From positions 1 through 23,559 of IMG/VR virus record IMGVR_UViG_3300028844_001949: DNA of 23,559 bases; one strand, 5' to 3'. How positions within the stretch are numbered: position 1 is the stretch's first letter; every line of letters starts with the position of its first letter. Source of the stretch: a virus. Of this stretch, positions 3,321 to 7,611 are shown one piece after another. The position numbers were made by a program, and so were the translations under genes. The notes under the pieces were generated by a model that was not told the origin of the DNA, searched no databases, and saw only the letters and a list, made by a program, of their open reading frames with translations.

Positions 3321-3809
3321 ATGCCCCAAAAAGAGACAAAATACACAATAGAACGCCTTAAAGGCGGTTTTAGCAGAGCCCTACCATTACACCAATACAA
3401 CCAATTGGTTAATTTTGCATCAGTCAAAAAGCTATTAGCAGAATGTCCAGGAGACTATGTTTGTTATAGATTTTATTACAACAGAGTAGCAGTTGCAACA
3501 AGTGAACCAGATATAAATGAATGGTTAGAGTTACACGGACAAGGTCCGCAGGCACCAATTGATACTTCAAAAGTAAAACGCAATGGTGGTTTAAAAACAG
3601 CATCTGGACAAAACGGATACAGCAAAGGTTTTAGTAATGATGCAATGGTAAACAGTCACACACTACAAGCGGAGATTATGCATAGATTAGATAATGGTGC
3701 AACACTCACAAGTCTTGCTGATGAATTGGGTTGCAGTGCAGCAAACATAATTTACCACAAGAAAAAATACATTCAACGTATGGCCAAAGAATTAGAGGTT
3801 GACAACTAA
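3321..3809 (+). CDS. Unknown protein with C-terminal helix-turn-helix-like segment
   Basis: The protein has 162 residues and a good ribosome binding site (AAGGA, 6 nt before ATG). The N-terminal 80 residues are unrecognised. The middle (residues 85-115) is Lys, Gly, Asn and Ser-rich and probably a flexible linker. The C-terminal 50 residues read LDNGATLTSLADELGCSAAN followed by a basic helix, which looks like a resolvase- or MarR-type helix-turn-helix: helix, ADELG turn, then a recognition helix starting at Cys-Ser. It is the first gene after the tail operon, and its stop codon is embedded in a strong promoter (3799-3827). A transcription regulator of the following region is an inference. No specific family is assigned. 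Confidence 0.7.
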   Translation: MPQKETKYTIERLKGGFSRALPLHQYNQLVNFASVKKLLAECPGDYVCYRFYYNRVAVATSEPDINEWLELHGQGPQAPIDTSKVKRNGGLKTASGQNGYSKGFSNDAMVNSHTLQAEIMHRLDNGATLTSLADELGCSAANIIYHKKKYIQRMAKELEVDN

Positions 3810-3827
3810 CAGTTTATAGTGTATAAA
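3799..3827 (+). promoter_or_regulatory. Sigma70 promoter TTGACA-17-TATAAA
   Basis: A perfect -35 (3799-3804) is separated by exactly 17 bp from TATAAA (3822-3827). The -35 overlaps the stop of the preceding gene. Expected transcription start is near 3834. No gene follows for about 370 nt, but a strong terminator lies at 4044-4092, so the transcript would be a non-coding RNA of roughly 260 nt. Confidence 0.75.
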
Positions 3828-3841
3828 TAGTACTGTTAGTT
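3804..3841. promoter_or_regulatory. Perfect 10-bp inverted repeat spanning the 3799 promoter's -10 (operator candidate)
   Basis: AACTAACAGT (3804-3813) is repeated in inverted form as ACTGTTAGTT (3832-3841), with an 18-bp centre containing the -10 box and one arm on the predicted start site. Two half-sites about 28 bp centre to centre on either side of the -10 look like an operator for a dimeric or looping regulator. RNA folding is less likely, because the left arm lies upstream of the predicted start. Confidence 0.55.
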
Positions 3842-4092
3842 AGAAAAAGTTTTTGTATATTTACTCATACGTATAACGTGTTCTCAAATACAGTTATAAC
3901 AGCCTACTTAATCTAACTAAAAGTTGTATACGGGTTATTTGCGTATTTCATGACGCAGCTCCAAACAAAATGAAACATTTTTTGTGCCTGCAGTTAGCTG
4001 CCCTTACTGTGTACAGCGTTTTCAAATAAGTGTTAGAACTTACAAAACCCTATACGTGTTTTCTCCTTAAATGATTTGCGTATAGGGTTTTT
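3834..4092 (+). ncRNA. Candidate ~260-nt non-coding RNA between tail operon and the 4202 gene
   Basis: This stretch has no convincing ORF. It is bounded by a consensus promoter on the left and by a 13-bp hairpin terminator on the right. Inside are short self-complementary pieces, for example AAAATG-AAA-CATTTTT (3969-3983). The assignment rests on the promoter-terminator pair. No known RNA family was recognised. It could also be only a spacer that insulates the tail operon from the next transcription unit. The remaining gap to 4201 holds the next promoter and leader. Confidence 0.45.
4044..4092. terminator. Strong bidirectional intrinsic terminator
   Basis: AAAACCCTATACG (4044-4056) pairs perfectly with CGTATAGGGTTTT (4079-4091), a 13-bp stem with a 22-nt loop. 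It is followed by T residues on the + strand, and the A-run on the left serves the - strand. It ends transcripts from the tail operon or the 3799 promoter, just before the promoter at 4131. Confidence 0.85.
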
Positions 4093-4130
4093 CTTTGAAC
4101 TCAAAACCGCTGAAAAAACACCGTTTGAGC

Positions 4131-4159
4131 TTGACAAATGCCGTTTTGTCATATATAAT
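4131..4159 (+). promoter_or_regulatory. Consensus sigma70 promoter TTGACA-17-TATAAT
   Basis: Perfect -35 (4131-4136) and -10 (4154-4159) with a 17-bp spacer. The expected start is near 4166, leaving a leader of about 36 nt with AGGAG before the ATG at 4202. A second inverted repeat, CTCAAA (4100-4105) / TTTGAG (4124-4129), sits just upstream of the -35. Confidence 0.9.
4132..4151. promoter_or_regulatory. Inverted repeat operator candidate in the 4131 promoter
   Basis: TGACAAA (4132-4138) and TTTGTCA (4145-4151) form a perfect 7-bp inverted repeat with a 6-bp centre. It overlaps the -35 box and most of the spacer, so a protein bound here would exclude RNA polymerase. The sequence differs from the repeats at the 3799 and 6265 promoters. 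Confidence 0.55.
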
Positions 4160-4201: not shown

Positions 4202-4648
4202 ATGGAAATTATCACAAACAATTTATATGACATAAAGTGTCATCACACTTATAATCACAAGCTGAGAAACAGTACTTGGACTGGCATGAACAAAGGCGGT
4301 AAAGTACAAGGCGGTGAATTAGACAAATTACGTAACAATTTAAGCAATACAGATTGGGCTACATTAATTGTAGCTATAGAAAACAATCTACGCAAATTAC
4401 CAAGCAAACAATCAGATGAATGGGACAAAGCATTGCTTAACCTATTGCGTGTCTGTGACATATCACTTAACCCACTAAATGCAATATGCGTTGAAGGTGA
4501 GTTCCGTGATTACATGTCAAGCAAATCACGTGATTGGAAAAAACTACAAAAAAGTTTATGGCAAGTTCTTATGAGTGGAATGGAATGTTTAGAATACATC
4601 AATTGGGATGTAGAAACTTCTGAAGATGATATGTTTGAAGTAGCTTGA
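4202..4648 (+). CDS. Unknown early-type protein, 148 aa
   Basis: The gene has its own consensus promoter (4131-4159) with an overlapping inverted repeat, and an AGGAG site 7 nt before the ATG. The product is soluble, mixed alpha-helical and tryptophan-rich (W22, W53, W78, W116, W122, W134), with an acidic C-terminus (TSEDDMFEVA). I recognise no domain. The stop codon lies within the -35 region of the next promoter (4645). A strong, apparently repressible host-type promoter in front of a single small gene fits an early host-takeover or regulatory protein, but that is inference only. Confidence 0.75.
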   Translation: MEIITNNLYDIKCHHTYNHKLRNSTWTGMNKGGKVQGGELDKLRNNLSNTDWATLIVAIENNLRKLPSKQSDEWDKALLNLLRVCDISLNPLNAICVEGEFRDYMSSKSRDWKKLQKSLWQVLMSGMECLEYINWDVETSEDDMFEVA

Positions 4649-4673
4649 CAAAAACAAAAAACTATCTTATAAT
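4645..4673 (+). promoter_or_regulatory. Consensus sigma70 promoter TTGACA-17-TATAAT driving a gene-free region
   Basis: Perfect -35 (4645-4650, overlapping the stop of the 4202 gene) and -10 (4668-4673) with a 17-bp spacer of mostly A and C. The start is expected at about 4680. No inverted repeat is visible in it, unlike the neighbouring promoters, so it may be constitutive. The downstream 650 nt contain no substantial ORF. Confidence 0.88.
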
Positions 4674-4679
4674 ACAAAC

Positions 4680-5052
4680 AATGGCTAATACAATACTCAC
4701 ACAGAACCCTTTACAAATAGCAACAAAAGGTTGGCGGGCCAGATAATATACCGCTGTGTAAAAAGACCCTAAGAAAGTCACACGTAACATATTGAGACAC
4801 TCCCGTAGTGCATTGCGTAGCTACTATCCTGAGAAATTGGAAGTGAGTTTAAGTATTGATATAGTATGAATTTGCTACATACAGAACCTTTGGTGTTAAA
4901 GCATAACACAGGTAGGCTATAAAAGTGCTCTTAGATACGCGGCACTATAAAATAACTGTTGCAGGTTGGTCAAGTCCAAAGACCCTTAGCATACTACCTT
5001 GTATAACAAAACAATTACCTGCTTTCCAACTGACTGAAAAGTCATTTTTTTT
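4680..5052 (+). ncRNA. Candidate structured non-coding RNA (~370 nt), no family recognised
   Basis: The stretch starts at a perfect promoter and ends at a hairpin with a T8 run (5031-5052). It has no ORF longer than 21 codons (ATG 4681, with no room for a ribosome binding site). Base composition is more balanced than in the surrounding genes. Pairings seen by eye: 4886-4889/4910-4913 enclosing GTGTT/AACAC (4893-4897/4905-4909); AGTGC/GCACT around 4924-4945; a 6-bp long-range helix GCAGGT (4961-4966)/ACCTGC (5017-5022) enclosing GGTC/GACC (4968-4971/4981-4984). I looked for RNase P, tmRNA, 6S, tRNA and group I intron signatures and did not find them. Large structured RNAs are known from phages (GOLLD, ROOL), but I see no specific match. 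Confidence 0.55.
5031..5052 (+). terminator. Intrinsic terminator, short stem with GAAA tetraloop and T8
   Basis: TGACT (5031-5035), GAAA loop, AGTCA (5040-5044), then eight T (5045-5052). The stem is short and AT-biased, so read-through into the next hairpins is plausible. Confidence 0.55.
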
Positions 5053-5262
5053 GGATACCTTTGAGTAGGTATCCTGTGACTGAAATATCAAGAGTTATTA
5101 ATTGTATTATCAATTAAATGATGTAATGTTCCACTTAACTAATTGATATGGAGTTGCAGGTATTGAGTAAAAAAACAACTGAATGAAATGAAGTTGTTTT
5201 ATTCTCAAGACTTGTCTGTTGTGCGTAGCAGAACAGATATGTAACAACAACTTGATTGTGTC
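5053..5262 (+). other. Gene-free run of hairpins downstream of the RNA candidate
   Basis: No ORF with a ribosome binding site is seen here. The segment contains successive perfect or near-perfect hairpins: GGATACCT/AGGTATCC (5053-5060/5067-5074, 6-nt loop); TTAATTG/CAATTAA (5098-5104/5111-5117); the long hairpin at 5163-5208, listed separately; and TCTGTT/AACAGA (5215-5220/5232-5237) enclosing TGC/GCA. It may be the 3' part of a longer structured RNA, a processed leader of the small-gene operon that follows, or an AT-rich origin-type region. Confidence 0.4.
5163..5208 (+). terminator. Long hairpin, possible second terminator
   Basis: TTGAG (5163-5167) pairs with CTCAA (5204-5208), and AAAACAACT (5172-5180) pairs with AGTTGTTTT (5192-5200) around an 11-nt loop. 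The T-rich 3' arm could terminate transcription, but there is no T-run after the outer helix. It could equally be an RNA processing or stability element. Confidence 0.4.
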
Positions 5263-5313
5263 TTTGGTGTGCGGCTGGCCAAGCTCAGACTAACCGGAAG
5301 CAATCACGCCAAA
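5263..5313 (+). promoter_or_regulatory. Structured leader hairpin before the 5328 gene
   Basis: TTTGGTGTG (5263-5271) pairs with CACGCCAAA (5305-5313), a 9-bp helix with one G-U pair, closing a GC-richer 33-nt apical region that contains CGG (5272-5274) and CCGG (5294-5297). It ends 4-5 nt before the AGGAG ribosome binding site of the gene at 5328. The position suggests a translation-control or transcript-stability element. No riboswitch class is recognised. Confidence 0.45.
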
Positions 5314-5327
5314 AAACAGGAGATCTA

Positions 5328-5534
5328 ATGAAAACATTTGATACATTTAAGTTTCACTTATTACTACAAAATAAAACTATACCAGAACTTGAAAATCTTA
5401 TAAAGATGCGTGAATATAGTTTTAAGGTAAAAAGACGTGGAACTTATCATATAAGGAGTACACCTTCACGTGAACATTCAGCTGGTGTTTATGTAGACAA
5501 GAACCAAAATACATGGAGTATAGAAGGAGAATAA
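5328..5534 (+). CDS. Unknown small protein, 68 aa
   Basis: The ATG at 5328 is chosen because AGGAG lies 6 nt upstream. An in-frame GTG/ATG further upstream would cross the structured leader. The product is 68 residues and basic in the middle (KVKRRGTYHIR, residues 33-43), followed by a beta-type segment (AGVYVDKNQNTWSIEGE) at the end. No family is recognised. It heads a run of four closely spaced small genes (5328-6242) lying between the RNA region and the promoter of the AAA+ gene. Confidence 0.7.
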   Translation: MKTFDTFKFHLLLQNKTIPELENLIKMREYSFKVKRRGTYHIRSTPSREHSAGVYVDKNQNTWSIEGE

Positions 5535-5542
5535 ATACAATT

Positions 5543-5782
5543 ATGGTAGTAGAGATATACAGTTATAACAGTGGCTTCAGAGTCATTGATAAATTTGAGT
5601 ATCCCAATCAAACAGAATTAGACAAAGATTTGGTATTACGCAAATTAGCAGGAACTTGGGTAGGTCATAAGATATATGATATATCATTGGCTGAATTCAA
5701 TAGTTTAAATCAAACACAACGCAACAATTTAGATTGCAAAGCCGTATTTGATAAAGCGGCATACATAGGAGCAGGAAAATGA
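5543..5782 (+). CDS. Unknown small protein, 79 aa
   Basis: I chose the ATG at 5543 (MVVEIYSYNSG). AGGAG at 5525-5529 is 13 nt upstream, rather distant. An alternative ATG at 5513 inside the previous gene would add ten basic residues. The stop overlaps the next start (ATGA at 5779). The sequence begins with a beta-hairpin-like segment (VVEIYSYNSGFRVIDKFEY), then a helix-rich acidic part (QTELDKDLVLRKLAG). No known domain. It is tightly coupled to its neighbours and probably co-transcribed. Confidence 0.7.
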   Translation: MVVEIYSYNSGFRVIDKFEYPNQTELDKDLVLRKLAGTWVGHKIYDISLAEFNSLNQTQRNNLDCKAVFDKAAYIGAGK

Positions 5783-6090
5783 ACAATGAAAGACTAAAAA
5801 AATTCAATAAATGGTGGAAAACAAATCATCACTATAAATTAGCACACAGATGGCTGGTAAAACACACCAAACGTTGTATACACAATTATCACATTGCACC
5901 AGAGCAATTTGATCATGCAAAAAGTGTAATGAAAAGATACAATTCAAGTGAGTACAAAAGATTAAACCGTGCAGATGCAGAATTCTTATGGAGATTAACA
6001 CATCCCACAGTCAATCAAAGACGTGAAAGATTGTTGGCTACAGCGGCATTCTTTGACAGTGTTGCAGATCACAGTAAATTGAATAAATGA
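5779..6090 (+). CDS. Unknown basic small protein, 103 aa
   Basis: Starts by ATGA overlap with the previous gene and ends by ATGA overlap with the next (6087). The product is strongly basic and rich in His, Lys, Trp and Tyr in its first 40 residues (FNKWWKTNHHYKLAHRWLVK), then helical, with a basic KRYNSSEYKRLNRAD stretch. The composition suggests nucleic-acid binding. No motif confirms it. Confidence 0.7.
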   Translation: MNNERLKKFNKWWKTNHHYKLAHRWLVKHTKRCIHNYHIAPEQFDHAKSVMKRYNSSEYKRLNRADAEFLWRLTHPTVNQRRERLLATAAFFDSVADHSKLNK

Positions 6091-7116: not shown

Positions 7117-7611
7117 ATGGATTTTTTCAAACAAATAAAACAACCTGCAAAGTATGAAGCAACTATAATTGAAAAAGGTAAATCTCACCTTAAAGGTTGT
7201 AAATTAACAGAAGAACATAAACGTAAAATTGGTGAGGCCAGCAAAAACAGAACATGGACTAAAGAATCACGTAAAAAACTTAGTGAATCACACAAAGGTG
7301 TGCCTAAAACAGACCAACAAAAAACTAATTTAAGTGAATCTATAAGTAAATTCCGTTATCAAGGTAAAACTCTTAGAGCTTTGTCAATTGAATTAGGTGT
7401 GCATAAAGATACTATTAAAAAACATCTTAATAGGTATGGACATTTAGACAACATATATAATGACATAAAACCACAATCTTATAATGGAAAAACTGTAACT
7501 GAATGGTCAGATGCTTTGGGGTTTTCTACTACAAGCATTAGAAATCATTTGACAACACATGGTCATTTAGACATATTAATAAAAAAGAGTAAAAGGAGCA
7601 AAACAAAATGA
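7117..7611 (+). CDS. NUMOD3 / tandem helix-turn-helix DNA-binding protein without nuclease domain
   Basis: Residues 20-65 carry NUMOD3-type modules (KLTEEHKRKIGEASKNR and TKESRKKLSESHKGVPKT), which are normally found in the DNA-binding part of GIY-YIG and HNH homing endonucleases. Two similar units follow, at roughly residues 85-110 and 125-150. Each starts Y-x-GKT, has a helix-turn-helix (LSIELGVHKDTIKKHL; WSDALGFSTTSIRNHL) and ends in GHLD. No GIY-YIG, HNH or LAGLIDADG catalytic motif is present in the 164 residues. Either the nuclease half was lost or the DNA-binding part was co-opted as a regulator. It begins 6 nt after the AAA+ gene with no clear ribosome binding site. Confidence 0.8.
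   Translation: MDFFKQIKQPAKYEATIIEKGKSHLKGCKLTEEHKRKIGEASKNRTWTKESRKKLSESHKGVPKTDQQKTNLSESISKFRYQGKTLRALSIELGVHKDTIKKHLNRYGHLDNIYNDIKPQSYNGKTVTEWSDALGFSTTSIRNHLTTHGHLDILIKKSKRSKTK

Follow-up and report, generated by a model that had tools for sequence, protein, structure and literature searches.

A putative accessory RNA gene with conserved ends and exchangeable cores in small phages known from metagenomes

The gene-free stretch and its promoter

The window investigated here, a 23.6-kb virus record analysed over its whole length (23,559 nt), belongs to a small marine phage known from metagenome sequence alone, with structural genes and a gene for a terminase. This terminase shares 47% identity with that of phage DSL-LC06 (lake water, complete, 29.8 kb) and about 43% with the terminases of Pelagibacter and Vibrio phages. 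With the genes as drawn here, the largest intergenic gap of the window is a gene-free stretch of 679 nt (4649-5327), and the features identified in and around it are collected in Table 1.

Table 1. Position of the features at the RNA locus, in window coordinates; helices are predicted from the sequence
Feature	Position	Strand	Remarks
148-aa gene	4202-4648		Flanks the gene-free stretch on the upstream side
Sigma-70-type promoter, TTGACA-17-TATAAT	4645-4673	+	12/12 consensus match
Conserved 5' leader, TGGCTAATA ... ACAGAACCC (4701-4709) ... ACAAAT	4680-4718	+	Common to core types A and B and the window
Core 5' domain	4719-4792	+	Match to model R1 at 4701-4792, 34 bits
5'-domain hairpin 1	GCGG 4734-4737 / CCGC 4751-4754	+	Loop GCCAGATAATATA; same loop in L062
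5'-domain hairpin 2	GTGT 4756-4759 / ACAC 4780-4783	+	
Window version of the central core, multi-helix	4793-5030	+	Prediction only; located where type A has its covarying core
Predicted central-core helix of the window	CACTCC 4798-4803 / GGAAGTG 4839-4845	+	
Weak hairpin TGACT-GAAA-AGTCA followed by T8	5031-5052	+	Terminator of the initial annotation
Hairpin GGATACCT (5053-5060) / AGGTATCC (5067-5074), then TGACT	5053-5081	+	
Conserved 3' domain: AT-rich segment, TTCCACTTAA (5129-5138), two hairpins	5100-5241	+	
Optional 3' hairpin domain, GGCCAAGCTCAGACTAACCGGAAGCAATCACGCCA	5250-5312	+	Common to the window and L064 only
68-aa ORF	5328-5534		Flanks the gene-free stretch on the downstream side

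The initial annotation had proposed a perfect promoter upstream of this stretch, and the match to the consensus bears this out. It was also described as the best promoter of the window, a rank that it shares: two promoters in the whole window reach 12/12, the other being located at 4131-4159, and that at 3799-3827 reaches 11/12. The hexamers are retained in the relatives described below, with a spacing of 16-17 in most of them, and the RNA would start near 4680. The stretch had further been described as devoid of a real ORF, in agreement with our finding that the longest ATG ORF in the first 600 nt comprises 21 codons (all forward frames). A 47-aa GTG ORF (4925-5068) falls in the part without a sequence counterpart among the relatives, across which no small ORF is conserved. 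A small peptide starting at ATG 4682 was considered and rejected, as its frame is shifted in L066, indicating that the nucleotides are kept and not a peptide.

A second conserved non-coding unit is located at 3799-4125 of the window, with a TTGACA-17-TATAAA promoter (3799-3827), a length of about 280 nt and a strong terminator-like hairpin (AACCCTATACG...CGTATAGGGTTTTTC). Six of its predicted pairs covary, it has no match in Rfam, and it is conserved in L001, L070, L076 and L078, including contigs that do not carry the main RNA.

Searches against known RNAs returned no family for the main unit: at the gathering score of Rfam 15 no match was found for the window or for seven relatives (L001, L021, L062, L064, L069, L070, L071), and permissive scans (window, L069, L070, L071) gave chance-level matches only. 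ARAGORN and Rfam identified no tRNA or tmRNA in the window, and the Rfam models for RNase P RNA, 6S RNA and self-splicing introns matched neither the window nor its relatives, so that the reported lack of all these signatures was confirmed. The segment ACAGAACCC, and no other part of the unit, resembles an RNase P motif. Among isolated and GenBank phages, DNA searches yielded short chance matches only; the promoter-leader pattern was unmatched in the bacterial and archaeal genomes searched, and no description of this RNA was found in the open-access literature.

Homologues, fold and extent of the unit

A DNA pattern derived from the promoter and leader retrieved twelve viral contigs; L073, L074 and L093 were recovered in addition with an 18-mer of the core and a relaxed pattern. 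The unit is thus carried by 15 other viral contigs, or 16 including the window, with several near-duplicates among them: L065, L067, L068 and L072 look identical across the unit, L063 equals L021 in sequence, and L093 repeats L074. Nine further matches of the relaxed pattern (L091, L092 and L094-L100) were discarded, as their common sequence is different and coding. The leader ending in ACAGAACCC is common to all copies. In L073 its GGCTAAYA part is gone and a TTGACA-17-TATACT promoter is kept directly before ACAGAACCC, which suggests that transcription of the downstream part matters.

The ends of the unit are conserved and its interior falls into two or more dissimilar core types, type B having the ends alone in common with type A. 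The cores of L062 and L070 share 52-76% identity in the first 250 columns and 94-100% afterwards, and the differences between L066 and L070 fall mostly in columns 100-250; domains therefore seem to move or to evolve separately within the family. In this respect, the unit can be described as a mosaic accessory module, with domains exchanged within a core type. The most conserved stretch of the type-A core, TATATACTAATATTGGCTAAG, is a near-repeat of the promoter/start region of the unit, TATAATACTAATATTGGCTAAC (L070 1470-1889, minus strand).

Covariation was investigated in seven type-A copies (L062, L064, L066, L070, L071, L073 and L074). Their structure comprises 69 pairs with 95.8% of cells paired, a percentage biased upward by the manual drawing of the structure, guided by RNAalifold, from these very sequences; RNAalifold itself recovers most of the by-eye helices. 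Twelve pairs show changes on both sides, compared to 4.8 +/- 1.5 in shuffled alignments, and none of 500 shuffles matched the observed percentage of pairing, both-sided changes or covariation score, bearing in mind that related sequences may surpass shuffles even without structure. One helix, for instance, appears as CAACGG/CCGUUG, CAAGAG/CUCUUG and CGAAAU/AUUUCG. Shifting the pair partners by 1-3 columns cut the pairing to 36-48%, and the core of L070 is more stable than its shuffles (z = -2.53). The type-A fold is kept by selection. The type-B core, represented by three distinct sequences, shows a few compensatory pairs, too few for a claim.

The window was connected to this family through its two ends. 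A covariance model (R1), trained on type-A copies including L062 and with the window left out, matches the 5' domain of the window with an E-value of 3e-5 (106 kb), or 2.5e-7 locally. The L062 loop GCCAGAUAAUAUA is kept there, and its closing stem has changed from GCAC/GUGC to GCGG/CCGC. The 3' domain can be aligned across type A, type B and the window, which in blastn matches L001 with 79.5% identity over 88 columns (E 2.7e-12); a second model (R2, spanning 5032-5241), trained with the window and without L073 and L074, detects both of these copies. For the central core of the window no close relative was found, and the 5'-domain pattern matched L062 only. The window accordingly belongs to the family, with central helices that are predictions, and its homologous 5' and 3' domains suggest that its fold, too, is kept by selection.

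As for the extent of the unit, the initial annotation had placed the end of the RNA at the hairpin with T8, giving about 370 nt. The hairpin and the T8 are indeed present, and a comparable weak hairpin with a U-rich stretch occurs at the equivalent position in most type-A copies. Its stem counts 5 bp (UGACU-GAAA-AGUCA, -4.2 kcal/mol) and was not picked up in a terminator scan of the window; it is lost in L073 and L074 and absent from type B. Moreover, conserved RNA features extend about 190 nt beyond it: the stem at 5053-5081 differs in sequence and is constant in location across type A, type B and the window, and the two hairpins of the 3' domain follow at about 5163-5207 and 5214-5238. The fold of 4680-5052 is no more stable than shuffles (z = +1.29), whereas that of 4680-5260 is moderately more stable (z = -1.90). 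The proposed end and length thus probably do not hold: the real unit covers about 4645-5241, perhaps up to 5312, the RNA would measure roughly 550-600 nt, and the T8 hairpin is probably an internal element rather than its 3' end. The general proposal of a structured phage RNA outside the recognised classes is supported by the covariation, the absence of an ORF and the lack of an Rfam match, and its short, non-mosaic form gives way to a longer, mosaic accessory module.

A swappable slot and the possible role of the RNA

Comparison of contigs with and without the unit delimits the slot that it occupies. Homology between L070 and L076 continues until 14 nt before TATAAT and resumes at +594; between L064 and L084 it continues until -42 (96%) and resumes at +690 (97%). 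In place of the RNA unit, L076 and L084 carry protein genes of about 1.8 kb, and the slot of L078 includes a protein that, judged by eye, reads like an MT-A70 methyltransferase. Seven contigs (L076, L077, L078, L079, L084, L087 and L090) possess the downstream genes and lack the RNA; in the RNA-less records searched, which may be fragments, model R2 detected nothing significant that would correspond to the 3' domain. Wherever its surroundings are visible, the unit is located upstream of one gene cluster, with a varying next gene: the 68-aa ORF in the window, another small ORF in L062, a 79-aa protein in L070 and others, and a 103-aa protein in L064. Of the features that define a moron, the unit has its own promoter and is present or absent between conserved phage genes; as for a terminator, weak hairpins with U-rich stretches are the only candidates and do not occur in all copies.

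Several proteins around the slot deserve mention. Distantly related proteins encoded in L076 (4064-5602), L084 (3454-4563), L089 (3626-4696) and L053 (179-859) share, in our reading, a polymerase-like HDG motif, and the L076 and L084 copies fill the RNA slot. No Pfam match and no relatives among isolated phages were found for them. The predicted fold of the L084 protein had a mean pLDDT of 39 and was not used. The 103-aa protein, encoded just downstream of the unit (5779-6087 in the window) and in relatives, is strongly conserved and was found in viral contigs only, with no match in isolated phages or the cellular genomes searched. An ORF at 7117-7611 of the window, with matches to a NUMOD3 motif and an HTH, resembles part of a homing endonuclease and was not found in the other loci.

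On balance, the unit is probably a stand-alone phage non-coding RNA gene, an accessory moron-like module inserted between phage genes. From its host sigma-70-type promoter, transcription would begin near 4680 and yield an RNA of about 550-600 nt. This RNA would consist of the conserved leader at the 5' end, a multi-helix core open to exchange and the conserved 3' domain, and it would act on its own during infection instead of being a leader that the next genes require. This reading follows from the whole-domain variation of the core and the replacement by protein genes; the conserved promoter, the size of the unit, its slot and the turnover of the next gene also speak for it. The conserved ends may contribute to expression, processing or stability, and contact with a host or phage target may fall to the variable core. 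The transcript would read through into the downstream genes and then be processed, a likely course given that no strong terminator was found between the unit and the next gene (5328). Antisense matches in the phage genome reached 11-12 nt, no longer than for mononucleotide-shuffled RNA. The initially suggested roles in host takeover, packaging or anti-defence are conjectural, the ideas of host takeover and anti-defence being drawn only from the accessory position.

The main rival, which we hold to be possible and rather unlikely, is a long cis-acting 5' leader (an attenuator, antitermination or processing element) controlling the cluster from 5328. The unit shares its strand with the cluster of the 79-aa and 103-aa proteins and immediately precedes it, at a constant position and with no strong terminator between, and its internal weak hairpin with the U-rich stretch could attenuate. 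This reading has to contend with the seven relatives in which these downstream genes occur although the RNA is missing, with the change of the immediate next gene among copies, and with a size of 600 nt and exchangeable cores, large for a leader. That the RNA ends after 370 nt at the T8 hairpin, and that the 3' domain is an element of its own, is improbable: similar hairpins in several type-A copies favour it, but the weak stem, its loss in L073/L074 and absence in type B, the conserved hairpins directly after T8 and the fold stability of 4680-5052 speak against it.

An origin transcript of the ColE1 RNA II primer type, replacing the polymerase-like gene of relatives, would fit the absence of the HDG-motif slot proteins of L076 and L084 from the RNA-bearing records searched and the purine-rich 3' part of the unit. 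We regard it as highly improbable, since no GC-skew switch was seen at the unit, L078, L079, L087 and L090 carry neither the RNA nor an HDG-motif protein at the slot, and the polymerase reading of the slot protein is unproven, given its low-confidence fold prediction. Least credible of all is a functionless stretch, decaying or derived from coding sequence and structured by chance: the single minimum-energy fold of 4680-5052 does not lie below shuffles, but the promoter is conserved, the module is exchanged precisely and the type-A covariation contradicts it.

More speculatively, the stand-alone RNA may belong to a hitherto unrecognised class of phage RNA machines, in which the ends are fixed and interchangeable cores set the specificity, and which compete with protein genes for one slot; we consider this doubtful. 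If true, the core type would set the target, for example a host factor, a host defence or a competing phage.

Comparison with known systems

Phage morons are autonomous accessory units, usually protein-coding, with their own terminator. The unit resembles them in having its own promoter, in its position between phage genes and in being carried by only some relatives, and differs in that its product would be an RNA and that no strong terminator was found; on this reading, RNA genes join the cargo exchanged by phages at accessory slots. ColE1 RNA II, a structured RNA of about 550 nt with a strong promoter, a variable 5' part and a conserved 3' part, is similar in size, structure and promoter strength, whereas a GC-skew switch is missing at the unit.

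The number of known large phage RNAs is small, and even those studied in most detail, GOLLD and ROOL, lack an assigned function (PMC12286853). Natural variants with and without the RNA, and with fixed ends and a changing core, offer ready comparisons for function in a compact RNA; the genome of DSL-LC06, a relative of its phage, measures about 30 kb. GOLLD is likewise large, multi-helix and borne by phages or prophages, but its covariance model in Rfam 15 does not match the unit; it often exceeds 800 nt, compared to about 550-600 nt here, and often lies near tRNA genes, whereas the window has no tRNA. Its 3' region is conserved and its 5' region less so (PMC12286853), one conserved end in contrast to the two conserved ends and variable middle of this unit. 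ROOL, with an example of 659 nt (PMC12286853), is phage-borne and similar in length; it differs in that its Rfam 15 covariance model gives no match, in that the unit is not near tRNA genes, and in its promoter and core, which are unrelated as far as compared. Since neither Rfam, isolated phages nor the searched bacterial genomes provided a match, we regard the unit as a new RNA family of a kind already known: GOLLD and ROOL are its nearest counterparts in kind, not in sequence, and it belongs to neither.
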